Shown one piece after another: positions 4,244 to 34,053 of a stretch of 64,000 nucleotides of DNA. Under the pieces are notes generated by a model. That model was given only the letters and a program-made list of their open reading frames with translations, did no database searches and was not told the DNA's origin. This DNA is from an uncultured Phocaeicola sp. (GTDB lineage Bacteria > Bacteroidota > Bacteroidia > Bacteroidales > Bacteroidaceae): positions 62,001 through 126,000 of the forward strand of contig CANPVZ010000010.1 in assembly GCA_947581855.1 (NCBI GenBank), written 5' to 3'. Within the stretch, counting starts at the first letter, position 1; each line of letters opens with the position of its first letter. A program made the translations under genes and the position numbers.

Positions 4244-4354
4244 TTGCGCAGTGTCGTGAGGTTGCGCTGTGTACATTATAACATTGCGCTGTCTACGTGG
4301 AAAGGTCGCGCTGTCTACGTCATGACACAGAGCTGTCTACGTCGGGAGGTTGCG
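4244..4354. repeat. Degenerate tandem array, 22-bp period
   Basis: Four contiguous 22-base units at 4262, 4284, 4306 and 4328, core GCGCTGTCTACGT, flanked by partial units at 4244 and 4350. Units 1 and 3 end in ACA and units 2 and 4 in AGG, so a 44-base double unit is suggested. There are no spacers between units. Confidence 0.85.
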
Positions 4355-6076: not shown

Positions 6077-7636
6077 ATGAAAACACTCATATTAATTCTT
6101 TGTATAGCAGCAACCTGCCAGCTTTCCTTTGCGCAGGATATCCCTGCCAGATGGGGCGATCAAGGTAACGGCACTTATATTAATCCGATTTTAAATGCCG
6201 ACTATTCCGATCCGGATGTGATTCGGGTAGGGAAGAAATTTTATATGGTAGCTTCCGATTTCCATTTTCTGGGCATGCAAGTGTTGGAATCGGAGGATAT
6301 GGTAAACTGGAAACTTATTTCGCAAATATATAAAAGGTTCGATTATCCCGGGTGGGATGAGAATAAGCAGTATGCAGGAGGCTCTTGGGCACCGTCTATC
6401 CGTTACCATGATAATAAGTTTTGGGTATTCTTTTGTACTCCCAAAGAAGGGTTGTTTATGTCGAATGCAGAAAACCCTACAGGTCCGTGGTCTCCGTTGC
6501 ATTTGGTCGAGAAAGTGGAAAAATGGGAAGACCCATGTCCCTTTTGGGATGAGGACGGGCAGGCTTATTTAGGACGGAGCCGTCATGGGGCAGGTCCTAT
6601 CATTATCCATAAGATGAGTGCCGACGGTACCCGTTTGCTCGATGAGGGAAGAACCGTTTATACAGGTCCGGTAGCGGAAGGAACCAAGATTTTTAAAAAG
6701 GACGGCTACTATTATATATCCATTCCTGAAGGAGGTGTGGGAGAAGGTTGGCAAACGGTGTTGCGCTCCCGTAATATATATGGCCCCTATGAAAAGAAAG
6801 TAGTGCTGGAACAAGGCTCTACAAATATAAACGGTCCCCATCAGGGAGCAATTGTCGATACGCCTGATGGGCAATGGGCTTTCTTCCACTTCCAGCACAA
6901 TGGCGCTTTGGGGCGTGTGGTGCATTTGCAGCCGATGTATTGGCACGACGGATGGCCTGTGATAGGTGTGGATATGAACCGTAATGGCATCGGCGAACCG
7001 GTTTATGTATGGAAGAAACCTATAGAAAGCACGAAAATCGTTGTTCCGCAGACGGATGATGAATTCTCATCCGAAACACTTTCCTTGCAATGGCAGTTCA
7101 ATCATAATCCGGTGGATGAAGCATGGTCGTTGACGTCACCTCGTGGTTGTCTGACACTTCAGGCGTTAATTGCCGCAAATGTGCGTCTGGCACGAAATAC
7201 AATCACACAGAAAGTAATGGGATATGTGGGTGAAGCTACGGTGGCCGTTGATTTATCCGGCATAGCTGAAGGACAACGTTGCGGAATGGCATGTATGGGT
7301 AAAGAAAACCAGTCGCTCGGTATTAAGATGGAGGATGGAAAACAGTGGCTTTATCAGTCCGACGATACGTTGGAAACTAATCTTGAGCTAATTAAGCGGA
7401 AGAAGATTTATTTACGGGTTACTATTGATATGCCGAATAAGCAGTTCCGTTTTGCATATAGTGTGGATAATGTCCGGTTCAAGTCCTGCGGCGATCCTTT
7501 CTTTGTCCGTTTCGGTAACTGGAAAGGTGTGCGTGTAGGGCTCTATTGTTTCAATAAGCAAGAAAAGGCGGGTCGCGTTTCGTTCCCGTGGTTTCACTAT
7601 AAACACGACGGACCGCAATCGGACCACACGGAATAG
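6077..7636 (+). CDS. GH43 beta-xylosidase/alpha-arabinofuranosidase
   Basis: Exported GH43 five-bladed propeller glycosidase with a C-terminal beta-sandwich (GH43 C2-type, about residues 330-515). The ATG at 6077 is chosen over 6032 because it gives a clean signal peptide ending LSFAQ (about 1-20). The three GH43 acids can be placed: Asp45 in DYSDPD (base), Asp152 in WEDPCPFWDEDG (pKa modulator) and Glu201 in GPVAEGTKIF (acid). The neighbouring pectin enzymes suggest arabinan or arabinogalactan side chains of rhamnogalacturonan I, but xylan-type linkages cannot be excluded. Confidence 0.9.
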   Translation: MKTLILILCIAATCQLSFAQDIPARWGDQGNGTYINPILNADYSDPDVIRVGKKFYMVASDFHFLGMQVLESEDMVNWKLISQIYKRFDYPGWDENKQYAGGSWAPSIRYHDNKFWVFFCTPKEGLFMSNAENPTGPWSPLHLVEKVEKWEDPCPFWDEDGQAYLGRSRHGAGPIIIHKMSADGTRLLDEGRTVYTGPVAEGTKIFKKDGYYYISIPEGGVGEGWQTVLRSRNIYGPYEKKVVLEQGSTNINGPHQGAIVDTPDGQWAFFHFQHNGALGRVVHLQPMYWHDGWPVIGVDMNRNGIGEPVYVWKKPIESTKIVVPQTDDEFSSETLSLQWQFNHNPVDEAWSLTSPRGCLTLQALIAANVRLARNTITQKVMGYVGEATVAVDLSGIAEGQRCGMACMGKENQSLGIKMEDGKQWLYQSDDTLETNLELIKRKKIYLRVTIDMPNKQFRFAYSVDNVRFKSCGDPFFVRFGNWKGVRVGLYCFNKQEKAGRVSFPWFHYKHDGPQSDHTE

Positions 7637-7702
7637 TTTTTAAAAGAACTGATAAAGAGAACGGTTATTATATACGTTGCTTTCCTAAAGTTGACCTTTA
7701 GC

Positions 7703-7732
7703 ACCTAAGCTTTTATAATCGTAAAGCTGAGG
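7703..7732. other. Hairpin downstream of GH43
   Basis: CCTAAGCTTT pairs with AAAGCTGAGG (9 of 10) across a loop of about 10 bases. Without a proper T-run it is only a possible transcript end for GH43. Confidence 0.35.
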
Positions 7733-8533
7733 TTTAGCATTCCAGTCTTTTTATTCACTCAATCCGCATAGTGTCTCTGTGCTCAGCTATATTCAGGCCA
7801 ATGCGCAACTGTACAAATTGTTTTCTGAAACGGCAAGGAAACGTTTCCGCAACTGCGTAAAAACTTCTTTCCTACTTCTTAAGTTACGGCATTTCCTGTT
7901 TAGTCTGTGGAGGCTACTTTCGATACACTACATTCCTGTCTATTCAAAAGCATAAATGGGTATTTCATGAGGCAGTAGAAAATCAATGAGGATACGCATG
8001 TTTTGCGCTCGATAATCATGGGAGAAAGGTTCGCGTTTTTTAGTTCCTACCTTGTGAATCATCCCTATAGAAAATATCTTTCCACACCTGCTTTTAATGT
8101 TTCACCCATCACCGATTTCCTTGATGAAATGGGGCATTCCGAGTGAAGGATAGGTTGTTTTCACGTTCGTAGGAGGTTTCGCCTCGGTTTCCTTTCACGG
8201 GTCCTTTCATCCTCCGTGAAAGCTCTTCCTGGATGATACCGGTGAATTGTTCCCTTCACCCGAAACACCTGTCGGAATTGGGGTTTCAGGTAAAAGGAAG
8301 CGCCGAAAGCACTTCCGGGCACGCTTCTTAACAGCTTTACCGTGAAATGTGTGTGAAACCGGGCATGTCTCACAGCAATCTACTGAACTGTAGATAATTA
8401 CTTCTTCACGTGACAGGATGAAACGGGGAAGAGCCAAACACCTTATAGGAAGGGGAGGAAGCGGCCAATTCGATGTGGGGATTTCCATTCGGTAAACTTC
8501 CTAGTTATCCTTGCCAAGCTCTGGGGTGAATCC

Positions 8534-8687
8534 TGCTAAATGCATAGTTAACTCTGCTAAGTGACGTGTTTAACAGTGTCAAGTGACGTGCTTAACTCTG
8601 CCGAGTGACGTGTTTAACAGTGTCAAGTGACGTGTTTAACTCTACTAAATGCCATGGTTATCCCTGCCAAGTGACGTACTCGGGAGG
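8534..8687. repeat. Degenerate tandem array, 22-bp period (7 units)
   Basis: Units start at 8534, 8555, 8577, 8599, 8621, 8643 and 8665, with lengths 21-23 (mostly 22). Core AAGTGACGTGTTTAAC. Units 2 and 4 end in CAG and units 3 and 5 in CTC, again suggesting a 44-base double unit. Confidence 0.9.
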
Positions 8688-11103: not shown

Positions 11104-14100
11104 ATGAAACATAGAACCTTTGCATGTGTAGTAGCATGTATAATTATGTCGGGATGGATAGCCAAGGCACAGACCGAACTGATTCCGACGGTAGAGATTC
11201 CTGCGGGAAGTTTTTATATGGGAACTTTAGGCGAGGAGGAGAATTACGATGAAGCTCCCATGCATAAAGTATATATTTCCAAACCTTTCAGGATGGGAGT
11301 GACGGAGGTTACCAACGCACAATATGAGATGTTCCGCCCCGAACATAAAGCTTTACGCGGTAAAAACGGCTTTTCCAAAGAAGACGATGAAGCAGTGGTG
11401 TGCGTAAGCTATGAAGACGCTATTGCCTTTTGCGAATGGCTGACGGAAAAAGAAGGTAAAATTTATCGCTTGCCTACTGAAGCGGAATGGGAATATGCTT
11501 GTAAAGCAGGCCGCTACTGGAATTTTTATATGGATGATAAGTTGCCGGTAGCCTTTCAGAAAAATCAGGTTATTACTTCTATCCCTCAGCCGGTGTCGCT
11601 GAAAGTAGGACAGACACCGCCCAATGAATGGGGATTATATGATATGTGCGGCAATGTGGAAGAGTGGTGCCTTGATTGGTATGGCCCTTATGTAACCGGA
11701 GACCAGGTAGATCCTGTGGGTTATCAGGATGGGATAGCAAGGGTGACACGAGGAGGTAGCCATAATACCCCGACGGAGTATCTGCGTTCGGCCAATCGGA
11801 TGGCTATGTTGCCAGATGATAAACATGTAATGACCGGCTTCAGGGTAGTGCAGGCCGATTATTCATTGGCTCCGCCCCTTATCCGGCCGCAAGATGACTA
11901 TAAAGTGGATCAGACGAAGTGGAACTGGCAAGCCGGCCGGACAAATAGTCCCGTGTTTACGGCTCCGCAAGTCTATGTGCATCAGCCCGAACCCGGATCG
12001 AAAGTACCTTTCTTCAAACATAATCACCAGCCGGCTCTGACTTGGTGCGATAATGGCGATTTATTGGCTATATGGTTTTCTACCAACGAAGAAAAAGGAC
12101 GCGAGATGGTAGTGCTTTCATCCCGTTTGCGTGCAGGAAGCAGTGAGTGGGAGAAGCCTCGCTTATTTTATCATGTGGCCGACCGGAACCTTACAGGTTC
12201 GTCTTTGCTAAACGACCGAGAGGGGACTCTTTATCATATTAACGGAGTGGAAGCGGCTGGTCGTTGGCGTAATTTGATGATGACATTACGTACCAGTACG
12301 GATAATGGGCAGACGTGGAGTGCTCCTCGTATTATTGCACCGGAACATACTGTGAGACATCAAGTGATAGCCGGAGCTTCCGTCACGAAGGAAGGTTGGC
12401 TTATTCAAGCTTGTGATGCCGGGCCAGGTGGAAGTGACGGTTCGGCAATTCATATTAGTAAGGACAAAGGAAAGACATGGAACGACCCTTGGGACGGAAC
12501 TCCTAAACCGGACTTTAAAGAAGGCGGAAACGGTACGACCATAGCAGGCATTCATGCAGGGGTGGTACAGCTGAAAGATGGAAAGTTAATGGCTCTGGGA
12601 CGTAACAACAGTATTCCTGATAAGGAGGGACGTTTGCGTATGCCGATGAGCATTTCCGATGATATGGGGAAAACATGGCGTTACTCGGCATCGGAGTTTC
12701 CTCCCATTGACGGAGGGCAACGTATCGTGCTGATGCGTTTGAATGAAGGACCCATTTTGCTGGTATCTTTTACGGAACATCCTTTCCGTACTCCGAAAGA
12801 AAATCGAGGAATGATGTTTGCGGATGAGTTCGGTAATCGTTTCAAAGGATACGGTATGTTTGCTGCGGTATCGTATGATGAAGGGAAAACCTGGCCTGTA
12901 AAACGCTTGCTTACAGATGGAGTCTATCGTTTTTTGAATGGAGGAGCGTGGACACAATTCTTTGAAATGGACGGGTCTCATGCGGAACCTCGTGGTTATT
13001 TGGCCGGAACACAAACTCCGGACAATATGATTCATTTGGTAACCAGTCGTTTCTATTATAAGTTTAATTTACCTTGGCTCGAAGAGGTAAAAGAGCCTGC
13101 TATCCCGTTAGATGCCTTTATGGATGGCATTCATCATTGGAACCTGGATCATAAAGAGCGCTCCTATCCCCGTTATTATGCCAATGATTTTGTTAGCATA
13201 GCCAATAATTTTGTTGCTTATCAAAATGAAGACGGAGGGTGGCCGAAGAATCTGGATTGGTTGGCGGCGCTTCCGGCCGATTCGGTGAAGGCGGCTTTGA
13301 AGGAACGTTACCGGATGAGTACGCTCGATAACCGGAACACTTTTCCTCAGATAGAATATCTGGCAGATGCTTATAAGTTGACGAAAGATGAACGTTATAG
13401 AAAAGCGGCCTTAAAAGGATTGAATTATTTGCTGGCAACTCAGAAAGAAAATGGAGGCTGGCGCGGATGGGATGTGGATGCCATTACTTTTAACGATGAG
13501 GTCACAACCGGAGCGCTGGAACTTTTCCAGAAAATTGTATGGGGTGATGACAGTTTCTCTTGGCTGGATGAGTCTGTTCGAACGAAGATAAGAAAAGGAT
13601 ATGACAAGGGGATTGATATGATATTAAATTGCCAGATTGTGCAAAACGGAGTGAAGACAGCTTGGGCACAACAGCATGACAATGTAACGTTTCTTCCGGT
13701 TAAGGCGCGTACGTATGAATTGCCCGGTATAACGGCTAATGAAAGCTGTGATGTATTAAGGTTGCTGATGAATATTCCAAATCCGTCAAAAGAAGTGGTA
13801 GAAGCCATCAAGGCAGGTATGGTTTGGTTGGATAAAGTAAAGATTACGGGATTGCGCATCGACAAAATAGCTTTGCCTGAAGAGAAAATAATTAATCATG
13901 AATATCCGTATGATCAGATAGAGGTAAGAGATAAAAAGGCGGAACCTATATGGGCACGTTATTATGAGGTATCCGATAATACCCCATTTTTATGTACGCG
14001 TGCCGGACAGAAAGTATGGAAGTTGGCCGATGTCAATGCGGAGCGTCGTACCGGATATGCTTGGTATGGTTATTGGCCGAAAGAGACATTCAAACTTTAT

Positions 14101-21510: not shown

Positions 21511-21620
21511 TAACATTACTAGTTTAAAATTGTAACATTATTAGTTACGCTTGATCGTATTATTAGTTGCGTTGAATAACATTATTAGTTATTTCAGATA
21601 ATAAGATTCGTTACTTCTTC
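21511..21620. repeat. Degenerate tandem array, 22-bp period (5 units)
   Basis: Units at 21511, 21533, 21555, 21577 and 21599, each exactly 22 bases. Core TAACATTATTAGTTA, with the last unit decayed. The same core reappears at 53953-53995. Confidence 0.9.
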
Positions 21621-21834: not shown

Positions 21835-24459
21835 ATGATGAAGTTAAGGATTTTCGTATTCTTATATTTTGTGAGCTTTTGGTTTATGACTTCTTTCTCG
21901 CCACAAGCCTCTATCTACGCTCAGCACCCCGCCACCCAGCGTTTGGCAAATTACATCAAGCATATCAACCGCTTCGCAACGGATTGTCCTCAGGAAAAAG
22001 TATACCTACATTTCGATAACACGGGTTATTACGTGGGTGACACCATCTGGTTCAAAGCCTATACGGTATTTGCCGAAACTGTCAAACCTACCACCTTGAG
22101 CCGTGTGCTTCACGTAGAGCTGGTAACTCCCCGGGGTGAGATTGTGGACAGCCGTAAGTTGAAGATTGTGGACGGCCAGTGCCATGGTGAGTTTGCTTTA
22201 AGCGATGACTACCGTGGCGGTTTCTATGAGGTGCGCGCCTATACGCGGGGCATGCTGAACTTCGGGGATGATTATATCTTTTCTCGTGTATTTCCGGTAT
22301 ATAGCGCTCCGGAGATATCGGGTAACTATGAGGCGAAAGAGATGGACAGTTTCTTTGGTGAGAAGAAAGAGCGTCCTTCCCCTGCAACCTACGATAAAGT
22401 GAATCTAACTTTCTTCCCCGAGGGCGGTCATGCGGTAAAGGGTTTGCGTTCTAGGATTGCTTTTCGTTCGAGTGGAAGCAAAGGGGAGGATATCTGTGTG
22501 AGGGGTAACCTATATAATAAGTCGGGTGAGCAAGTGGCGGTATTGAATACCCTTCACCAGGGAATGGGCGTCTTTGAATTAACCCCTGAAGAAGATGAAT
22601 ACAAGGCTGTTTTGGAATATGACGGGAAGCAATATACGTTTCCTTTTAAAGAGGTACTTCCAGAAGGCTATACCATGCATGTTAACAACATGCGTTCGGA
22701 GAGTATACAAATTACACTTCAAAAATCTTCTTCGCTACCCTATGATACGGTGGCTGTTTCTGTGAGTTGTCGTGGACGCGTATATTCAGTAGAGGCATTC
22801 GGTTTGGGTGAAGAACCTTATACATTCAGCGTGTCGAAAGATCGGTTTCCTGCAGGTTGCCTGCAAATCACAGCTTTTAATGCGGATGGTGATATTCTGG
22901 CGGAACGTCTGGCATTTCATACCAAGCCCGACATGTACATTCCGATAAGAGTCACCCAGGACAAGCCTGTGTACAAACCCTTCGAGGAAATCAACATGGA
23001 GTTTGATATTCATGACATTGAAGGCAATCCGGTGGAGACCACCTTTTCTGTGGCGGTAAGGGATGCGGCCACTACTCCTGTGACAGGTTATCAGGACAAT
23101 ATGCTGACCAACCTGCTGTTATCTTCCGAGGTAAAGGGTTACATCGAAAATCCGCTTCAATACTTTACGGATACGAGCCGTTCGACGAGAAGGAAGTTGG
23201 ATTTATTGATGATGGTACAAGGCTGGCGTCGTTACAGTTGGCAGCAGATGTCGGGAGTGAAACCGTTTGCTGTAAATCACTTTGTGGAAGAGGGCTTGCC
23301 TCTTTGGGGGCGTGTGTTAACATTGGTAGGTAATAAGCCTCGCACAAATGCCGATATCCTGTTTTGGATGAAGAACACGAAAGGGAGTGAGATACATGGT
23401 AAAGGCCATACGGATGATAAAGGTAATTTTTATTGTATTCTGCCTGACAGTTTGGATATAACCGGTCGTTGGTTGTTGAATGTTTCCGTATCGGAGAAAG
23501 GCAAGCAGAAACATTCTCAAGTATTGATGAACCGTCATTTCTCTCCGAAGAGGCGTAGTTATACCTATTTGGATACGTTTGTAAGGGACAGTGTTGTGCT
23601 TTTAGCGGAAGAAGAGGATAGTTTGCATCGGCCTTCCCTAATGGAGACTCAGGTTATGAAAGAGGTGCAGGTGAAGCGTTACCGTCCTCGGAAACGTTTG
23701 GAACCGGAATTTGTATTCGATGTAGATAAAGATATCAATGAACGGTTGGATAAAGGAGAAGATGTGCCTTCAACGATTGGAGAGTATGTTGAACTACACC
23801 ATCCTAACATTATTTATGATAATGATTTTAATATATATACTTATGGAATAATAAATAAATGGGCACGGAATCCAACACTTAAATATGTATTATTCCGTTT
23901 AGTCTGCCGAAAAGAGGATAAACCTAAGTTCCGTCATATTCTTGTACATGAAATTAATATAGAATCTGTCCGTTCAATTAAGGTTTATGAAAAGAACATG
24001 CTTGAGTTGAAAGAGAGGTATATGGATGAAGGCGGACAAGATGATTTATATTTAAGGAAGTTTGCTCGTCAAGATTCTATATTAAAAAAAGAAGATGGTG
24101 CTTCTTCTCGATATATCAGTTTGGAAAAGGATATAGGAGATGATATCGTAGAAAAAATAGGTATGAAAAAGATATTAAAAGCGATTGTTATTGCCGAGTT
24201 ATATGATGAAGTATATAACGATACCCGTAAAGGTATCCGCCAAACGTATTATACCGGTTATTCTCCAGTAAGGGAATACTATAACTTGAAAAGTTCCGAC
24301 CAGGCGATGGATGATATCCACTATCGTCGCACGCTTTATTGGAATCCGGATATAAAGACTGACGCTTCAGGAAAAGCAAATATCCGTTTTTACAATAATG
24401 GAACTTGTAAGCGGATGAACGTGAGTATAGAGCATCTCAATTTTATAAAGAATATGTAA
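21835..24459 (+). CDS. MG2-like (alpha-2-macroglobulin-like) exported protein, copy 1
   Basis: Large exported protein of 874 residues with a signal peptide of about 30 residues ending YAQ. It reads as a string of macroglobulin-type beta domains: an MG2-like domain starting YLHFDNTGYYVGDTIWFKAY, a second with FFPEGGHAVKGLRSRIAFR, and KPVYKPFEEINMEFDI. No thioester motif or protease bait region was noticed. Residues about 29-641 are identical to copy 2. Residues about 642-780 are unrelated or strongly diverged, and a conserved tail returns at ELYDEVYNDTRKGIRQTYYTGY. A small Cys-rich secreted protein follows 36 bases downstream. Function unknown; a surface scaffold or receptor with variable recognition region is inferred. 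Confidence 0.8.
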   Translation: MMKLRIFVFLYFVSFWFMTSFSPQASIYAQHPATQRLANYIKHINRFATDCPQEKVYLHFDNTGYYVGDTIWFKAYTVFAETVKPTTLSRVLHVELVTPRGEIVDSRKLKIVDGQCHGEFALSDDYRGGFYEVRAYTRGMLNFGDDYIFSRVFPVYSAPEISGNYEAKEMDSFFGEKKERPSPATYDKVNLTFFPEGGHAVKGLRSRIAFRSSGSKGEDICVRGNLYNKSGEQVAVLNTLHQGMGVFELTPEEDEYKAVLEYDGKQYTFPFKEVLPEGYTMHVNNMRSESIQITLQKSSSLPYDTVAVSVSCRGRVYSVEAFGLGEEPYTFSVSKDRFPAGCLQITAFNADGDILAERLAFHTKPDMYIPIRVTQDKPVYKPFEEINMEFDIHDIEGNPVETTFSVAVRDAATTPVTGYQDNMLTNLLLSSEVKGYIENPLQYFTDTSRSTRRKLDLLMMVQGWRRYSWQQMSGVKPFAVNHFVEEGLPLWGRVLTLVGNKPRTNADILFWMKNTKGSEIHGKGHTDDKGNFYCILPDSLDITGRWLLNVSVSEKGKQKHSQVLMNRHFSPKRRSYTYLDTFVRDSVVLLAEEEDSLHRPSLMETQVMKEVQVKRYRPRKRLEPEFVFDVDKDINERLDKGEDVPSTIGEYVELHHPNIIYDNDFNIYTYGIINKWARNPTLKYVLFRLVCRKEDKPKFRHILVHEINIESVRSIKVYEKNMLELKERYMDEGGQDDLYLRKFARQDSILKKEDGASSRYISLEKDIGDDIVEKIGMKKILKAIVIAELYDEVYNDTRKGIRQTYYTGYSPVREYYNLKSSDQAMDDIHYRRTLYWNPDIKTDASGKANIRFYNNGTCKRMNVSIEHLNFIKNM
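21919..23756 (+). repeat. 1,838-bp direct repeat, copy A
   Basis: This segment reappears at 26924-28761 (offset 5,005 bases). No difference was seen in the portions compared, and both translations match throughout. The left edge coincides with the signal peptide cleavage codons and the right edge with the start of the variable C-terminal part. Confidence 0.93.
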
Positions 24460-24495
24460 AGTGTTTTTATAATATAAATATTAATTTAATTAGTT

Positions 24496-24924
24496 ATGAG
24501 TAGAAAACTGTTATTTTTATCTGTGGCGATTGTTGGATTATTGGCATTCATTACATTTCAGAATGGAGAAATATTGTTTAAGGAAGGGAAAAGTGTATCA
24601 TCAGTGAATATAGTTGCGTTGGCTGGTGACGAGTTCCATCATGAAACTTGGGATGATATGGAACTTGTGACTTATCTTTGTGATGATGGTGCTCATGATG
24701 GTAAAAGTTGTGAATTATCATCAGGGTATCCTAAAGGTTGTACTTATGCAGATGAGGAATATTGTCCTCCAACGAGTGGAGATAATGGAAATGGTGAGAC
24801 AGTAAAACCAAATCCTGATCTCCAATGTCCTGCAGGAGGTTATCATAATTGGAGAAGAGTTTATATAGGGGGTGTGCTTCAAAATAAATGTACAAAGTGT
24901 GGTATGTTAAAAGGTAATAACTAA
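24496..24924 (+). CDS. Small secreted seven-cysteine NVEALA-type protein 1
   Basis: 142-residue secreted protein. The hydrophobic N-terminus (about 5-22) is followed by NIVALAGDE, matching the NVEALA leader motif of a Bacteroidetes-specific small protein family of unknown function. The mature part has seven cysteines: CDDG, SCE, GCTYADEEYC, QC and a C-terminal CTKC. The cysteine order and spacing match the second family member at 29467. It directly follows the variable end of MG2 copy 1 and is followed by a strong terminator, so the two are probably co-transcribed. It could be a ligand, bacteriocin-like peptide or structural partner. Confidence 0.8.
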   Translation: MSRKLLFLSVAIVGLLAFITFQNGEILFKEGKSVSSVNIVALAGDEFHHETWDDMELVTYLCDDGAHDGKSCELSSGYPKGCTYADEEYCPPTSGDNGNGETVKPNPDLQCPAGGYHNWRRVYIGGVLQNKCTKCGMLKGNN

Positions 24925-24941
24925 TATTTTGAGTTATAACG

Positions 24942-24986
24942 ACTATTATAGATTTATATACCATATAAGTCTATAATAGTTTTTTA
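24942..24986 (+). terminator. Strong terminator after NVEALA protein 1
   Basis: An 11-bp outer stem (24942-24952 with 24970-24980), continuing inwards to an almost closed hairpin, then seven T. It splits the locus into transcription segments. Confidence 0.88.
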
Positions 24987-25010
24987 ATATTTGATAATTA
25001 AGAGAATGAT

Positions 25011-26216
25011 ATGAAGCAATTACTGAGCATTCATTTTTATGTAAAGCAAATTCTTTACCTATTTGCATTCTTTTTGTTTGCATGTAATGGAGGCAAACCT
25101 AAATACATCGTAAAAGATGCTCCTCAAGCAGATACCATCTGCGTAGATATAGATAAAGCAAAGGACGATTCCTTTCGTGATATGTTCGAAAAGATAGATT
25201 ATATTTTGATGCCTTACGACAGTGTATTTTGCATTGGTAAAGTGGATAAATTGGTGGTTACAGATAGTCTGTTGTTTGTGATGGATCGGAGAATATCAAG
25301 AGGTATTTATGCGTTGGATAGAAAAGGGAATTCTGTAATTGTGATTCATAAAACCGGTACTGCACCGGGAGAATATGTCGCAATGAAAGATATATCTTAT
25401 GATGAAAAGACGCAAGAGGTAAAGACATATTGTGTGGCACGAAAGAAACAGATACATTATACGTTGCAGGGACACTTTGTAAAAGAGAATGATATACCTT
25501 ATTTTTCTTTAAGGGTGGAGCCTATAGGGGATAATTACATATTGCATGCTGATTATGCAAAAAGTGAGGACCTGAAGTGGAATGGGAAATACCCGAACCT
25601 TATTCTTTGGAATCCGAAGGAAAATGTTGTACTGTTTGCTGCCGACTATTTTAAGGCTCCGGCAGCAAAGGCCACTTTGATTACTTCCCAACCTCAATTC
25701 TCTAAACTTAACGATACATTGTACAGCATTAAACCGGATCATTGCAATACGGTTTACCATATTACACCGCATCAGATTTATCCGGCTTACCAGTTGGATT
25801 TCGGACCTTATAACTTGGATGAGGATTTTTGGAATATGGCTTCCAAGAAGCGGATGAAGTTTAAGACGCTGGATAATTACAGCGACAGCCGGGAACTTTG
25901 CGAGGCGTTTCGTTTTTTGGAGGGAAAGGATTTCCTTTATTTCGTATGTAAGCAACGGAAAACGGTGACGCATGTCTTTTATTCCAAGAAGACGAAGAGG
26001 CTGAGGCAAATAGCAAAATTTAAAAATGATATGGATTATGTCACGTTGTTCCGTCCGATTGCCATTCATGATGATAAGTTGTATTGCCTGCTGGATTCGG
26101 AAGAGGTATATAAAATGAAAGAAGAATTGACAGGTGTTCTGCCGGATAGGCTTCTGGAGAATGTACAAGAATTTGGGAATCCGATAATTGCGATCTTTAC
26201 TTTAAAACCTTTTTAA
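25011..26216 (+). CDS. 6-bladed beta-propeller lipoprotein
   Basis: 401-residue protein with a lipobox FLFAC (Cys25) after a hydrophobic N-terminus, so membrane-anchored. The rest resembles the Bacteroidetes 6-bladed beta-propeller family (PF17170): ICVDIDKAKDDSF at the start, then repeated blades such as LLFVMDRRISRGIYALDRKGNSV and TGTAPGEYVAMKDISYD. Members are often found beside NVEALA genes; their biochemical role is unknown and binding is the usual assumption. Only 3 bases separate it from the thioredoxin-like gene, so these two form an operon. Confidence 0.82.
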   Translation: MKQLLSIHFYVKQILYLFAFFLFACNGGKPKYIVKDAPQADTICVDIDKAKDDSFRDMFEKIDYILMPYDSVFCIGKVDKLVVTDSLLFVMDRRISRGIYALDRKGNSVIVIHKTGTAPGEYVAMKDISYDEKTQEVKTYCVARKKQIHYTLQGHFVKENDIPYFSLRVEPIGDNYILHADYAKSEDLKWNGKYPNLILWNPKENVVLFAADYFKAPAAKATLITSQPQFSKLNDTLYSIKPDHCNTVYHITPHQIYPAYQLDFGPYNLDEDFWNMASKKRMKFKTLDNYSDSRELCEAFRFLEGKDFLYFVCKQRKTVTHVFYSKKTKRLRQIAKFKNDMDYVTLFRPIAIHDDKLYCLLDSEEVYKMKEELTGVLPDRLLENVQEFGNPIIAIFTLKPF

Positions 26217-26219
26217 GAA

Positions 26220-26861
26220 ATGAAGATGATAACGTGGGTGCTGGCGACGGGCTTTGTTCTCGTGGTGGCGCTTAATTTTGTATTGCTTGATAAGTATAAA
26301 CAGGAGCGGGAAGCGAATGTGCATAAAGCAGAGACACTGGAAAGAGTTTCTGTCAATGAATTGACATTGCAGGAGAATATGTTGTTCCAGTATGCGGCGG
26401 AGGCTATGCCGTGTCCGGATGTGGAGTTGAGAAACCCGAAAACGAAAGGAGTACTTAAATTGTCGGAACTGGTGGAAGGAAAATCTCCGAAGCTGTTTTT
26501 CCGTTTTAAAGAAACGGATTGTGATGCCTGTATCCAACAGGCGTTGAGACTGCTGAAAGAAATCACGGCGGAGTTTCCGGATTTGCCGGTAACCATATTG
26601 AGTGGTTATGCCAATACCCGACAGTTTTATGCGTATGCAAACAGTGAAAACAAGTCTTATGAAATTTACAATGTCAGCAGTTTCCCTGTTGTGCCCGAAG
26701 AGCAGGACAAGCCTTATTTCTTTGTATTGAATGGGCGGGCAGCGATGGAGAGTGTTTATATCTTTACGCAGGGAAACAGCCGCCTTTCACGGGAATACCT
26801 GAAATGTATGCGGCATAAATATGGTTATTGTGGGGAAAAACATGATTATGAATATAAATAA
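26220..26861 (+). CDS. Membrane-anchored thioredoxin-like protein
   Basis: 213-residue protein with one N-terminal membrane anchor (about 4-23) and a periplasmic thioredoxin-like domain. The possible active site is CDAC in FKETDCDACIQQALRLL (around residues 101-105), followed by a LPVTILSGY strand and a FPVVPEEQDKPYFFVLN region where the cis-Pro loop is expected. A disulfide-exchange role is inferred from the CxxC. The natural candidates are the flanking seven-cysteine NVEALA proteins. It ends 8 bases before MG2 copy 2, indicating co-transcription. It is not a classical TlpA: the WCxxC tryptophan is absent. Confidence 0.75.
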   Translation: MKMITWVLATGFVLVVALNFVLLDKYKQEREANVHKAETLERVSVNELTLQENMLFQYAAEAMPCPDVELRNPKTKGVLKLSELVEGKSPKLFFRFKETDCDACIQQALRLLKEITAEFPDLPVTILSGYANTRQFYAYANSENKSYEIYNVSSFPVVPEEQDKPYFFVLNGRAAMESVYIFTQGNSRLSREYLKCMRHKYGYCGEKHDYEYK

Positions 26862-26869
26862 GATATCTT

Positions 26870-29308
26870 ATGAAAGTTCTGGTTATCCTCTTTGTAATAT
26901 TGGGTATGATAGGTCATTCTTTTGCTCAGCACCCCGCCACCCAGCGTTTGGCAAATTACATCAAGCATATCAACCGCTTCGCAACGGATTGTCCTCAGGA
27001 AAAAGTATACCTACATTTCGATAACACGGGTTATTACGTGGGTGACACCATCTGGTTCAAAGCCTATACGGTATTTGCCGAAACTGTCAAACCTACCACC
27101 TTGAGCCGTGTGCTTCACGTAGAGCTGGTAACTCCCCGGGGTGAGATTGTGGACAGCCGTAAGTTGAAGATTGTGGACGGCCAGTGCCATGGTGAGTTTG
27201 CTTTAAGCGATGACTACCGTGGCGGTTTCTATGAGGTGCGCGCCTATACGCGGGGCATGCTGAACTTCGGGGATGATTATATCTTTTCTCGTGTATTTCC
27301 GGTATATAGCGCTCCGGAGATATCGGGTAACTATGAGGCGAAAGAGATGGACAGTTTCTTTGGTGAGAAGAAAGAGCGTCCTTCCCCTGCAACCTACGAT
27401 AAAGTGAATCTAACTTTCTTCCCCGAGGGCGGTCATGCGGTAAAGGGTTTGCGTTCTAGGATTGCTTTTCGTTCGAGTGGAAGCAAAGGGGAGGATATCT
27501 GTGTGAGGGGTAACCTATATAATAAGTCGGGTGAGCAAGTGGCGGTATTGAATACCCTTCACCAGGGAATGGGCGTCTTTGAATTAACCCCTGAAGAAGA
27601 TGAATACAAGGCTGTTTTGGAATATGACGGGAAGCAATATACGTTTCCTTTTAAAGAGGTACTTCCAGAAGGCTATACCATGCATGTTAACAACATGCGT
27701 TCGGAGAGTATACAAATTACACTTCAAAAATCTTCTTCGCTACCCTATGATACGGTGGCTGTTTCTGTGAGTTGTCGTGGACGCGTATATTCAGTAGAGG
27801 CATTCGGTTTGGGTGAAGAACCTTATACATTCAGCGTGTCGAAAGATCGGTTTCCTGCAGGTTGCCTGCAAATCACAGCTTTTAATGCGGATGGTGATAT
27901 TCTGGCGGAACGTCTGGCATTTCATACCAAGCCCGACATGTACATTCCGATAAGAGTCACCCAGGACAAGCCTGTGTACAAACCCTTCGAGGAAATCAAC
28001 ATGGAGTTTGATATTCATGACATTGAAGGCAATCCGGTGGAGACCACCTTTTCTGTGGCGGTAAGGGATGCGGCCACTACTCCTGTGACAGGTTATCAGG
28101 ACAATATGCTGACCAACCTGCTGTTATCTTCCGAGGTAAAGGGTTACATCGAAAATCCGCTTCAATACTTTACGGATACGAGCCGTTCGACGAGAAGGAA
28201 GTTGGATTTATTGATGATGGTACAAGGCTGGCGTCGTTACAGTTGGCAGCAGATGTCGGGAGTGAAACCGTTTGCTGTAAATCACTTTGTGGAAGAGGGC
28301 TTGCCTCTTTGGGGGCGTGTGTTAACATTGGTAGGTAATAAGCCTCGCACAAATGCCGATATCCTGTTTTGGATGAAGAACACGAAAGGGAGTGAGATAC
28401 ATGGTAAAGGCCATACGGATGATAAAGGTAATTTTTATTGTATTCTGCCTGACAGTTTGGATATAACCGGTCGTTGGTTGTTGAATGTTTCCGTATCGGA
28501 GAAAGGCAAGCAGAAACATTCTCAAGTATTGATGAACCGTCATTTCTCTCCGAAGAGGCGTAGTTATACCTATTTGGATACGTTTGTAAGGGACAGTGTT
28601 GTGCTTTTAGCGGAAGAAGAGGATAGTTTGCATCGGCCTTCCCTAATGGAGACTCAGGTTATGAAAGAGGTGCAGGTGAAGCGTTACCGTCCTCGGAAAC
28701 GTTTGGAACCGGAATTTGTATTCGATGTAGATAAAGATATCAATGAACGGTTGGATAAAGGGGAATATATTCCGGCTACAGTGCAAGAGTATGCAGAATG
28801 GAAATATCCAATTTTGCAAAATTCTGGATTGAAGTTGATACAAATATATTTGTTAACTTGTAGAACTGAGGATGTGCCGAAGTTTCGACATATAGACGCC
28901 AAGGAAATAGATATAACCAATGTGAAACGATTGTTGATGTATCGTAAGAATATTACAGAACTTGTTAATAATCTTTCAAAATTTAATGCGGGGGTTGAAA
29001 CTTTGGTTATAAATGAAAAGAAGAACTACATACTTATTGTTTCGGAATTATATGATGAAGTCTATAACGATACCCGCAAAGGAATTCGCCAGACCTATTA
29101 TACCGGTTATTCTCTAGTAAGGGAATGTTATAATAATTTAACCGAGGACCAGGCGATGGATGATATCCACTATCGTCGTACTCTTTATTGGAATCCGGAG
29201 GTAAAGACGGATTCGACAGGCAAAGCAACTGTTCGCTTTTACAATAATGGAAATTGTAGGCAGATGGATGTGAGTGCAGAAAGGGGTATAACGAAGGATG
29301 AGAAGTAA
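26870..29308 (+). CDS. MG2-like exported protein, copy 2
   Basis: 812-residue paralogue of the 21835 protein. Its signal peptide (MKVLVILFVILGMIGHSFAQ) differs from copy 1, but from the cleavage site to about residue 632 the two are identical. It then diverges for about 110 residues (YIPATVQEYAEW onward) before returning to the shared tail ELYDEVYNDTRKGIRQTYYTGY and RRTLYWNPEVKTD. The variable block is shorter than in copy 1, which accounts for most of the length difference. It is co-transcribed with the propeller and thioredoxin-like genes upstream, and its own Cys-rich partner lies 158 bases downstream. Confidence 0.8.
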   Translation: MKVLVILFVILGMIGHSFAQHPATQRLANYIKHINRFATDCPQEKVYLHFDNTGYYVGDTIWFKAYTVFAETVKPTTLSRVLHVELVTPRGEIVDSRKLKIVDGQCHGEFALSDDYRGGFYEVRAYTRGMLNFGDDYIFSRVFPVYSAPEISGNYEAKEMDSFFGEKKERPSPATYDKVNLTFFPEGGHAVKGLRSRIAFRSSGSKGEDICVRGNLYNKSGEQVAVLNTLHQGMGVFELTPEEDEYKAVLEYDGKQYTFPFKEVLPEGYTMHVNNMRSESIQITLQKSSSLPYDTVAVSVSCRGRVYSVEAFGLGEEPYTFSVSKDRFPAGCLQITAFNADGDILAERLAFHTKPDMYIPIRVTQDKPVYKPFEEINMEFDIHDIEGNPVETTFSVAVRDAATTPVTGYQDNMLTNLLLSSEVKGYIENPLQYFTDTSRSTRRKLDLLMMVQGWRRYSWQQMSGVKPFAVNHFVEEGLPLWGRVLTLVGNKPRTNADILFWMKNTKGSEIHGKGHTDDKGNFYCILPDSLDITGRWLLNVSVSEKGKQKHSQVLMNRHFSPKRRSYTYLDTFVRDSVVLLAEEEDSLHRPSLMETQVMKEVQVKRYRPRKRLEPEFVFDVDKDINERLDKGEYIPATVQEYAEWKYPILQNSGLKLIQIYLLTCRTEDVPKFRHIDAKEIDITNVKRLLMYRKNITELVNNLSKFNAGVETLVINEKKNYILIVSELYDEVYNDTRKGIRQTYYTGYSLVRECYNNLTEDQAMDDIHYRRTLYWNPEVKTDSTGKATVRFYNNGNCRQMDVSAERGITKDEK
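26924..28761 (+). repeat. 1,838-bp direct repeat, copy B
   Basis: Second copy of 21919-23756, same orientation. Homologous recombination between A and B would delete 5,005 bases and leave one intact hybrid gene with copy 1's signal peptide and copy 2's C-terminus. Confidence 0.93.
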
Positions 29309-29466
29309 TACAGAATATGGAAATAAGATTGGGAGAATATTCTCTCTTGCCAGGCCTGATATTCCAAATCTTATTGATATAAAGTATGTAGTTAATAGTT
29401 TAAGTGGTATAAGCAAAACAAGAGAGTAAGAAGTGAATAGTCTAACCAAGTTAAAATTTTATCAAA

Positions 29467-29847
29467 ATGAAAAGTAAAAGTCTGATTGTTTTAAGCGTTT
29501 TAATAGCTTCAATTGCTATAACCTTAAAAAATATGGAGATTCTTAGAGATGTCAATGAATCGGGAATAGTTCTAAAAGAGCTTGATATGCAAGCTGGAGC
29601 TGCCTCTGAGGATGTTTGGCATTACACAAATGCAGAACCTTATACAGTGTACTGTGATGATGGATTTACATCTTATACGGCTTGCGAGAGTTCTTTAAAT
29701 GCAGGAAGTTGTGATGCTGGAGATGAAACGGATTGTCCTGGATATGATGGCCCATGTTCGTCTAGCCCGAATAAAGAACATGTATGGTTTTATATAAATA
29801 AAAAGCCTGTTTATTGTATCTATTGTAAAGCAGATTATTCTGATTGA
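29467..29847 (+). CDS. Small secreted seven-cysteine NVEALA-like protein 2
   Basis: 126-residue protein with a hydrophobic N-terminus (about 5-20) and a degenerate NVEALA-like segment ELDMQAGAASE. Seven cysteines follow the same plan as protein 1: CDDG, AC, SC, DC, PC, then a C-terminal CIYC. Outside the cysteines and CDDG the two diverge, as do the variable ends of their upstream MG2 partners. A terminator hairpin follows at 29862. Function is not known. Pairing with MG2 copy 2 is inferred from position. Confidence 0.72.
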   Translation: MKSKSLIVLSVLIASIAITLKNMEILRDVNESGIVLKELDMQAGAASEDVWHYTNAEPYTVYCDDGFTSYTACESSLNAGSCDAGDETDCPGYDGPCSSSPNKEHVWFYINKKPVYCIYCKADYSD

Positions 29848-29861
29848 AAGTAATGATAGTG

Positions 29862-29905
29862 GAGTGAAAAGAAATAGGATTATAATTCCTTTCTTTTCAC
29901 TCTTT
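29862..29905 (+). terminator. Terminator after NVEALA protein 2
   Basis: A 12-bp stem (29862-29873 with 29891-29902) with a bulge and inner pairs, followed by TTT. Confidence 0.7.
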
Positions 29906-29962
29906 GAATGGAATATAATTGTTATGTATTTAACGAAATTTCATTGATAGAATGGTGGGACA

Positions 29963-31879
29963 ATGGAATTATGGTATATCAACAAAAGAAATTATTTTTT
30001 TATTGTTCTTTTATATTTGGTGTTTGTCGCTTGCAACAATAGTAAGGAATCCCAAATACAATCTACTTTGGAAGTAGCCGAAAGTAACCGTTCCGAACTG
30101 GAGAAAGTGCTTTCTTACTTTGAGAATGAAAAACCGGATAAGCTAAAACGGGAGGCTGCCCGTTACCTGCTTGCCAATATGAGTGGGCATACTTCCATGC
30201 AGGGAAGACGCATGGAAGTATACAAAGAAATGGTGAGGACGGCGAAGAAACCGATTCCGAAGGATACACTGGAAGCTATATGGGAGAGGGCGAAAGCTAT
30301 AAAAGGCGGCATGGACGAAGAAGAGGACGCGGTGTTGATTTCTTCCGATTATTTAATCCGTCATATAGAGCAATCGGTGGAGGGATGGAAGCATGCACCT
30401 TGGAAGGATAGGGTTTCTTTCGAGGACTTTTGCCGTTATATATTGCCGTATCGGGTAAACACCGAACAGTTGGCTTCCGGGTGGATAGATTCTTTGCGGA
30501 CAAGATACGCTCCAGCAATAGAGGGAATAAAAGATATGAAGACGGCCTATATGGCTGTTCTTAAAAAGTTGGATAAGGAGTATCGAGAGTCGGAGGTCTC
30601 TTGTCCCTATACGCCGGATATCCTTACTTTGGACAATATGAAGATGGGGCCTTGCAAAGATCAGTGTATGCTGGCGGCAGCCGTATTGCGGGCGTTGTCC
30701 ATTCCGGCGGTTTACGATTATGTGACGCATTGGACAAACTATAGCAGAGTGGGGCATTCTTGGGTGGCGTTAGTGGATGGCGGAGAGACCTATACCTGGG
30801 AGAAGAAAGATACGAAGGTGAGGAAAGCGGTCCGGATTCCTGCTTCGGTGATGAAAGCAGAGGCTGTTCCCGAGAAAGATTACCCGTATTCGGTAGATAC
30901 ATTGAAGAGGGTTTCAAAGGTTTACCGCATTCTTTATACAACGAACACGCCGGAGGATGTTTCGGAAACTTATCAGTTAAAGGGATATTGTAAGATGGAG
31001 GTTCCCGAAGCTGTGGAAGCCGTATATCTGTGTACATTTCGTACCGGACGGGATTGGGAACCGGTGGATGCTGCTTATGTGAGAAGAGGAGAATGCCGGT
31101 TTGCAAATTTGGGATGTGGAACCGTATATCTGTTGATGAAGAAAGAATGTGGCAGGTTGTTTTCTGTTTCTGTACCGTTTATTCTTCATGAGAATGGAAA
31201 GATAGAGAGGCTCGTAGCGGATAAACAAACGAGAGAGACTGTTGTGCTGACCCGCAAATATCCGTTGATGGGAAATTGGATCAGCCAGTGGCATAAGATG
31301 ATTGGCGGAAAGTTGGAAGCAAGTAATCGTCCCGACTTTCAGCCGGCAACCGTGTTGGACAGCATTGTGGAAACTCCGGTATATAAGAACCGGTTTCGGA
31401 TACCTCATGTCGAAGAGGCTTACAGGTATGTGCGGTATGTATGTCCCGATAATTGCCGGACCCCGTTGGCGGAACTGGAATTTTATGAGGCCTCTACGGG
31501 AAAGCTGTTGATAGGAGAACCAATAGGTTCGGAGAGGCTGTCGGAAAGGTCGATGCGGCAAACTTTCGACAGGGATTTAATGAGTGTATGCAGTTCTAAG
31601 AAGAAATATTGGGTGGGACTGGATTTGAAAACAAAACGCCGGATAGGAGAAGTGGTGCTGTATCCGAAGAATGACGGAAACTTTATAGATATAGGTGACT
31701 GTTATGAACTGTTCTATTACGATAAGGGTTGGGTATCGTTGGGCAGACAGACAGCCTCCGGCTTGTCCTTGGTTTATCGGAATGTGCCGAAAGGTTCCCT
31801 GTTACTTCTGAAAGACCATACCAAAGGGAAAGAGGAGCGTGTCTTTGTTTACCGACACGACCGACAGGTTTGGGGATGA
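29963..31879 (+). CDS. Transglutaminase-like lipoprotein with C-terminal beta-sandwich
   Basis: 638-residue lipoprotein (lipobox LVFVAC, Cys24). An alpha-helical region (about 40-210) precedes a transglutaminase-like papain-fold core: GPCKDQCMLAAAVLRAL with Cys231 as likely nucleophile, and VGHSWVAL with His265. The C-terminal 150 residues (CPDNCRTPLAELEFYE, YWVGLDLKTKRRIGEVVLYPK) resemble a discoidin/F5-8C-type sandwich, which often binds glycans. Such enzymes can be proteases, amidases or crosslinkers; which applies here is unknown. Its position at the end of the MG2/NVEALA run suggests it could process or attach those exported proteins, but that is inference. Confidence 0.78.
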   Translation: MELWYINKRNYFFIVLLYLVFVACNNSKESQIQSTLEVAESNRSELEKVLSYFENEKPDKLKREAARYLLANMSGHTSMQGRRMEVYKEMVRTAKKPIPKDTLEAIWERAKAIKGGMDEEEDAVLISSDYLIRHIEQSVEGWKHAPWKDRVSFEDFCRYILPYRVNTEQLASGWIDSLRTRYAPAIEGIKDMKTAYMAVLKKLDKEYRESEVSCPYTPDILTLDNMKMGPCKDQCMLAAAVLRALSIPAVYDYVTHWTNYSRVGHSWVALVDGGETYTWEKKDTKVRKAVRIPASVMKAEAVPEKDYPYSVDTLKRVSKVYRILYTTNTPEDVSETYQLKGYCKMEVPEAVEAVYLCTFRTGRDWEPVDAAYVRRGECRFANLGCGTVYLLMKKECGRLFSVSVPFILHENGKIERLVADKQTRETVVLTRKYPLMGNWISQWHKMIGGKLEASNRPDFQPATVLDSIVETPVYKNRFRIPHVEEAYRYVRYVCPDNCRTPLAELEFYEASTGKLLIGEPIGSERLSERSMRQTFDRDLMSVCSSKKKYWVGLDLKTKRRIGEVVLYPKNDGNFIDIGDCYELFYYDKGWVSLGRQTASGLSLVYRNVPKGSLLLLKDHTKGKEERVFVYRHDRQVWG

Positions 31880-33671: not shown

Positions 33672-34053
33672 TAGTATCTGATTTATTGGTTATTGTTCTT
33701 TAAGTAATGACAGGTGATCTAGTAGGGCAGACAAGGTAACATAGGGCTGTCTGCCAGGTGATGCCACGCTGGCGGCATGCTTGTGCCAATATCTGTGTCA
33801 CACTTGTGCCAACGCTTTTGTCACACTTGTGCCAATATGTGTGTCACAGGTGTGCCAATGCTGTGGCACTAATTCGGAGCACGCTTCTCTTGTTTTATTC
33901 CGACTATGCCTGCAAACAGTTTACACTTACTCCTGTTTGCATTCTTAAGGCACTATACAGAAAACAGGTTTACAACCCACAGGACCGTCTTCCTTCACGC
34001 TCTCCTGTTTGCTTCCTAATTCACCATACAGAAAGCTGAAAGTTTTCCTTGTT
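33672..34053. other. Intergenic interval with hairpins and array
   Basis: Contains a 7-bp inverted repeat (33726-33732 with 33749-33755), the 23-bp array at 33782-33873, an 8-bp inverted repeat GCAAACAG/CTGTTTGC (33912-33940), and a diverged duplication of a CTCCTGTTTGC-ATACAGAAA segment 72 bases apart (33930 and 34002). No gene supported. Confidence 0.6.
33782..33873. repeat. Degenerate tandem array, 23-bp period (4 units)
   Basis: Units at 33782, 33805, 33828 and 33851, each 23 bases, starting TGTGCCAA with GTCACA in the second half. The last unit closes as GTGCCA-ATGCTG-TGGCAC, a small hairpin. Confidence 0.88.

Follow-up and report, generated by a model that had tools for sequence, protein, structure and literature searches.

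The window analysed here is a stretch of 64,000 nucleotides from an uncultured Phocaeicola species (contig CANPVZ010000010.1 of assembly GCA_947581855.1). The source genome, a draft assembly in 39 contigs with 88% completeness, represents one strain of the species. Seven consecutive ORFs lie on one strand of the window, at coordinates that agree with those placed by an earlier sequence-only reading (Table 1). As that reading had also described, each of two large MG2 genes, here called A and B, is followed by a different secreted protein with seven cysteines apiece (cysA and cysB).

Table 1. Features of the seven-gene locus; positions refer to the window unless given as residues
Feature	Position	Strand	Basis
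22-bp direct repeats, five copies, 5' of the first MG2 gene; possible regulatory element	21511..21620	+	Repeat search and shuffles
MG2 gene A, 874 aa: signal peptide, MG-like domains, plug-like block, conserved tail	21835..24459	+	ORF and profiles
Gene A homogenised core, 1 mismatch in 1842 bp against gene B	21919..23760	+	DNA comparison
Block A, Plug-like, aa 642-786	23758..24192	+	Plug matches of three relatives in the same alignment columns
Gene A shared tail	24193..24456	+	DNA and protein comparison
cysA, exported 7-Cys protein, 142 aa; NVEALA-like layout, without PF14055 match	24496..24924	+	Profile searches
Six-bladed propeller lipoprotein, 401 aa	25011..26216	+	PF17170, 124.9 bits; distant 4raa match; lipobox by eye
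Membrane-anchored thioredoxin-like protein, CxxC, 213 aa	26220..26861	+	Homologue searches; without Pfam thioredoxin family
MG2 gene B, 812 aa	26870..29308	+	ORF and profile
Gene B homogenised core	26924..28765	+	DNA comparison
Block B, Plug-like, aa 632-724	28763..29041	+	Alignment
Gene B shared tail	29042..29305	+	DNA and protein comparison
cysB, exported 7-Cys protein, 126 aa, cysA homologue	29467..29847	+	Sequence comparison
Transglutaminase-like lipoprotein, 638 aa	29963..31879	+	Transglut_core, 20.6 bits, below cut-off; lipobox by eye
Carbohydrate-binding-like stretch of the transglutaminase-like lipoprotein	aa 444-513	+	2yb7 match, E 3.6e-5

The core common to the two MG2 genes, previously put at nearly 1.84 kb, spans 1842 bp with a single, silent mismatch, and a repeat of this kind cannot have arisen by chance. 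The identity starts directly after the signal peptide predicted by eye and stops at the block. At the protein level, A and B agree at 612/612 positions in the core, 34/92 (37%) in the block and 63/87 in the tail, where DNA identity is 83%, and the return to a shared tail 3' of the diverged block is thereby borne out. The divergent C-terminal block itself was also recovered, though the 110-140 residues stated for it are only approximate, as it is 145 aa long in A and 93 aa in B. Synonymous divergence (pS) was 0.003 in the core, 0.74 in the block and 0.47 in the tail. The jump from 0.003 to 0.74 points to gene conversion round a preserved block and not to relaxed constraint, which the synonymous values contradict for this pair. 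The description of a constant scaffold with a variable block therefore stands: the flanks are homogenised while the block stays different, and the same was seen in a congener and in a genome of another family (G083).

In the congener, another Phocaeicola (G010, locus L015), both MG2 genes are found in tandem. Its own two cores share 92.6% protein identity and 92.9% DNA identity over 1779 bp, but only about 69% protein identity with the window cores. When the blocks were compared across the two species, A matched A at 57/116 positions and B matched B at 44/85, while the A-B comparisons gave 28/93 and 25/87. A tree of the core groups the genes by genome, whereas within-genome grouping of the blocks was rejected (AU p 0.0155 and 0.019), with weak support for the A-A clade (42/8) and support of 88/94 for B-B. 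For the tail it was A-A and B-B grouping that was rejected (p 0.00024 and 0.00115); the two G010 tails formed no clade in the best tree, and such a clade was not rejected (p 0.45). pS in core, block and tail of the congener pair was 0.23, 0.85 and 0.38, so that synonymous divergence is low in the scaffold and near saturation in the block, as it also is in the pair at L215. The simplest reading would be that body and tail were gene-converted around a preserved block. Taken together, the trees and synonymous sites show near-identical bodies that appear to be the product of gene conversion, with the A and B block types kept. Between the two MG2 genes of L015 lies a minus-strand gene pair (12472-13243) that looks toxin-antitoxin-like by eye.

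A search of the window's own genome and 100 relatives found proteins of the MG2/plug family in 56 of the 101. Among 139 MG2 proteins there were 13 within-genome pairs with a core identity of at least 60%, and eight with at least 75%. Duplicates (L009-L014, L093, L096-L102, L104, L115, L116, L132 and L133) were dropped from this comparison, along with proteins shorter than 650 or longer than 1100 aa and pairs in which too few columns aligned, and genome labels for the within/between split were assigned by hand. The eight within-genome pairs with a core of at least 75%, from six genomes, had median identities of 89% in the core, 39% in the block and 86% in the tail, against 90, 83 and 89% for 23 between-genome pairs at the same threshold (rank test p 3.9e-5, for pairs that are not independent). 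The block lay at least 20 points under the core in 8/8 within-genome and 2/23 between-genome pairs, and the median core-block difference between genomes was 3 points (n=23). Among the congeneric orthologues L095, L151, L153 and L154 the block was more conserved than the core in all six pairs, and in the four pairs that these form with L155 it was slightly less so. On these alignments, block and core are mostly conserved to a like degree in close orthologues, and paralogues differ in the block.

The pattern is also found in G083, where five MG2 genes on four contigs share a core of ~2.0-2.2 kb at 80-94% DNA identity, followed by a variable stretch and then by tails that, where aligned, are 78-90% identical in DNA. 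pS in core, block and tail of a G083 pair was 0.19, 0.64 and 0.30. At L041 (12614-15186) a second MG2 copy spans two overlapping frames, with the break close to the variable block, and over 1915 bp its core shares 97.9% identity with that of the first copy.

The MG2 matches of the window proteins (31.8 and 32.0 bits) are just below the cut-off of 32.8, and 48 of 54 family members match MG2 at E<=0.01. Weak matches to bMG3 (4), MG4 (2) and the bait region (1) were also found among the 54, while Pfam scans of the window proteins and relatives detected no thioester domain family. PF07715 (Plug) was above cut-off in three of ten relatives scanned (L074, L083 and L122), in all three cases in the block columns, and matched 4/54 family members at E<=0.01. 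A plug-like signature is readable by eye in G083. Blocks A and B of the window had no PF07715 match in the Pfam scan, and we call them plug-like from the relatives that align with them. CarboxypepD_reg was present in 11/54 members, upstream of the block position, and the two domains occurred in one protein, weakly, at L071 (Plug E 0.097). The 812- and 874-aa window proteins terminate in the conserved tail, and Pfam scans of the window proteins and the 54 members found no beta-barrel family. No solved structure matched the family profile at E<=0.1, no lipobox was seen by eye in the MG2 scaffold, and a literature search by title found no study of the family.

Ten proteins neighbouring MG2 genes at six loci were scanned. 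At L016 the MG2 gene lies behind a TonB receptor (L016:5023, CarboxypepD_reg - Plug - barrel) and one further, unassigned protein, and at L036 it lies near SusD. GH38 and GxGYxYP accompany MG2 at L041, GxGYxYP at L048, GH92 and a peptidase at L031, and a heparinase-like gene at L023.

cysA and cysB are homologous (E 4e-6, 34% identity), and their assignment to the NVEALA type could not be upheld. Neither matched PF14055 or any NCBIfam model at E<=1, nor, at E<=10, an HMM built from 12 of the genome's own NVEALA proteins, and only their layout is NVEALA-like. A congener homologue of the small proteins matched PF14055 at E 0.03, below cut-off. By profile, the cysA/cysB subfamily was found in two of 399 genomes of the family, the window's own and G006. 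Both proteins and the congener protein L144:7616 have in common a Cys pattern, noted by eye, with H-x-[WF] and CxxC near the end, which may resemble a zinc knuckle. True NVEALA clusters of the window's own genome (L124 and L126) carry propeller and/or transglutaminase-like homologues. A signal peptidase I-like gene was observed in the NVEALA clusters at L124, L125, L143, L144 and L148 (with a PF10502 match at L144) and an O-antigen-ligase/TPR protein at L144 and L148; the A-x-A at the end of the NVEALA motif resembles, by eye, a signal peptidase site. A literature search by title returned nothing relevant on NVEALA, and the terms DUF5128, PF17170 and PF14055 gave apparent Plasmodium gene numbers.

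The remaining neighbours largely conform to their first description. The propeller lipoprotein matches PF17170 (DUF5128) far above the cut-off of 22.9 bits and has a lipobox by eye. The anchored thioredoxin-like protein has its CxxC (CDAC, by eye) and lacks a Pfam thioredoxin match. For the transglutaminase-like lipoprotein the Transglut_core cut-off is 23 bits. Matches to the thioredoxin-like protein, at least 39 in all, came from 32 of 399 genomes. Twenty loci, from 19 genomes that belong to other genera than the window's, were sampled from the 39 matches listed, and three congeneric genomes with MG2 in the module were counted apart. The propeller adjoins the thioredoxin in 19/20 of these loci, and a small Cys candidate lies upstream in 18/20 by script, or convincingly in 16/20 after L196 and L200 (short) were discounted. 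A transglutaminase-like gene is present in 7/20 and MG2 in 0/20 of the fetched loci. The order cysA-propeller-thioredoxin in the window is the order of this triad. L190-L209 show a small-Cys/propeller/thioredoxin operon conserved across the family, the small protein being the most variable by eye.

Within the genus, the thioredoxin occurs in three of 15 genomes and MG2 is in the same module in all three, which makes a functional link there likely. The local association of MG2 with the triad is real, yet both halves also occur apart. A propeller was found within 3 kb of only 7 of the 78 MG2 genes with 3-kb flanks, so it is not a general partner and the window neighbourhood is untypical of the MG2 family. 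At L134, two propeller lipoproteins (270-1511 and 7369-8652) with near-identical ends and a diverged middle flank a mosaic MG2 pair.

Short direct repeats were a further feature. Twenty shuffles of the window gave a mean of 0 chains of at least three copies for comparison with the array at 21511-21620. Arrays of at least four short direct repeats, spaced at 21-23 bp and differing in motif from array to array, also occur in the window at 4264-4351, 8555-8642 and 33780-33871, and elsewhere at L015 (9738), L051 (9146), L048 (8092), L210 (4224) and L153 (13409). In a scan of the collected loci, minus twelve short own-genome ones, lags of 21, 22 and 23 bp gave 7, 22 and 9 matches, with some arrays counted repeatedly, against 1, 0, 0, 0 and 0 at lags of 17, 19, 20, 24 and 27. 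Both MG2 pairs, in the window and at L015, have one array upstream. The 22-bp repeats were considered as a regulator shared with the NVEALA clusters and rejected, the window motif being absent from L124-L126 at the strictness used. Intergenic direct repeats of another kind have reportedly been seen in Beggiatoaceae (PMC4679880).

The account we favour, to which we give a probability of about 0.6, is that two gene sets adjoin at this locus, a gene-converted scaffold pair with a specificity block and a small-Cys/propeller/thioredoxin triad. The scaffold pair would be old and would consist of MG-like domains, a barrel-less plug-like domain (judged from relatives) and a conserved C-terminal domain, with a carboxypeptidase-regulatory-like domain before the plug-like domain in some relatives. 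Gene conversion would keep the bodies of A and B almost identical, while the plug-like block would be too diverged for conversion and would persist as two long-lived types. The triad would comprise a small Cys-rich exported protein, the propeller lipoprotein and the membrane-anchored thioredoxin, sometimes with the transglutaminase-like lipoprotein, and in the window's genus the MG2 genes would have been placed beside it. That the bodies are homogenised and one plug-like domain is kept different suggests that the block sets binding specificity and so what each scaffold binds. Exported by Sec, the scaffold would act in the periplasm or at the outer membrane, its body serving as a common chassis and its block docking one envelope partner. 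That partner would most likely be an outer-membrane import complex, which we infer from the plug-like domain and the glycan loci, or in some loci the propeller. The small Cys-rich proteins would more probably serve the propeller/thioredoxin unit as substrates or ligands than be obligate block partners. A bolder version, in which barrel-less plug proteins with a uniform MG chassis and exchangeable plug cassettes are adaptors that dock or gate different import complexes in trans, we hold to be doubtful; one genome, G083, does have five MG2 genes with a shared core.

The sequence-only reading had instead proposed that each block has the Cys-rich protein next to it as its cognate partner, in a polymorphic system of recognition or antagonism. 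cysA and cysB do stand 3' of A and B and are about as diverged (34%) as the blocks (37%), and MG2, a small Cys protein, propeller and thioredoxin are found together in the congeners L143 and L144. However, G010 keeps both the A and B blocks but has neither a convincing small Cys gene within 1.5 kb of them nor a subfamily member by profile, although three true NVEALA matches on another contig make a partner in trans possible. Convincing small Cys genes were likewise missing within 1.5 kb of the mosaic pairs at L134 and L041 and of four of the six members of a congeneric variable-block group (L140, L141, L146 and L147), another member of which, L145, has short flanks. At L144 the small gene is upstream of its MG2, not downstream, and cysA belongs to a triad conserved without MG2 in 20/20 loci outside the genus. 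The likeness to antagonism systems found no backing either, with no toxin, immunity or defence family matched in Pfam, NCBIfam and defence searches, which leaves room for an unknown toxin fold. The adjacent small protein is not needed to keep two block types and the triad is not dependent on MG2; the small neighbours are probably not obligate partners of the block, and a cognate pairing is decidedly improbable. It is also unlikely that the propeller is the variable partner and co-diverges with the MG2 block. The two propellers flanking the tandem MG2 pair of G083 are mosaic too, with near-identical ends and a diverged middle, and a propeller is within 3 kb of an MG2 gene also at L019, L071, L123, L143 and L144. 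Yet the window has one propeller for two MG2 genes, three of the five family members in G083 have no propeller match in the fetched stretch, and the 7/78 noted above tells against it as a rule.

Near-identical 1.84-kb repeats are hard to assemble and the genome is a draft; the pair could in principle be an assembly artefact, or a recent tandem duplication with a swapped block, in place of old converted paralogues. We think this very unlikely, since the congener has the same two block types with its own homogenised, non-identical core, and G083 repeats the pattern on separate contigs. That the block is merely fast-evolving and weakly constrained is barely credible. Between the species of L140, L141 and L144-L147, too, the block has diverged much further than core and tail, and the two between-genome pairs with a gap of at least 20 points are L147/L140 and L110/L106; against this stand the 3-point median gap between genomes, the six pairs in which the block is the better conserved part, and the abrupt shift of synonymous sites at the core/block boundary. 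The reading of a converted scaffold pair beside a separate triad has the merit of keeping apart two sets that annotation by neighbourhood would merge. Under it, the conversion pattern indicates which residues are expected to govern specificity, so that partner choice could be tested directly.

Parts of the locus resemble several known systems. Like NVEALA clusters (PF14055), it has small proteins with a hydrophobic N-terminus and several Cys, a VALAGDE-like motif behind the N-terminus of cysA, and the propeller and transglutaminase-like neighbours of the true clusters of its own genome; unlike them, cysA and cysB have another Cys/His pattern and no PF14055 match, and no signal peptidase was seen among the seven window genes. 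The MG2 domain in 48/54 members and the weak bMG3, MG4 and bait-region matches recall the alpha-2-macroglobulin family, from which the window proteins differ in their MG2 scores below cut-off, the absence of a thioester match and the presence of a domain that appears plug-like. With SusC-type TonB-dependent receptors some relatives share a Plug in the block position, and other members a CarboxypepD_reg ahead of it, whereas the MG2 proteins have no barrel, carry MG-like domains before the plug and end in a different conserved C-terminal domain. Mosaic surface proteins of Porphyromonas gingivalis, for which gene conversion is discussed in one report (PMC5266723), are likewise exported by a member of the Bacteroidales and combine constant parts with exchanged domains. 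The variation described there is between strains, whereas here paralogues of the same genome are homogenised round the block.
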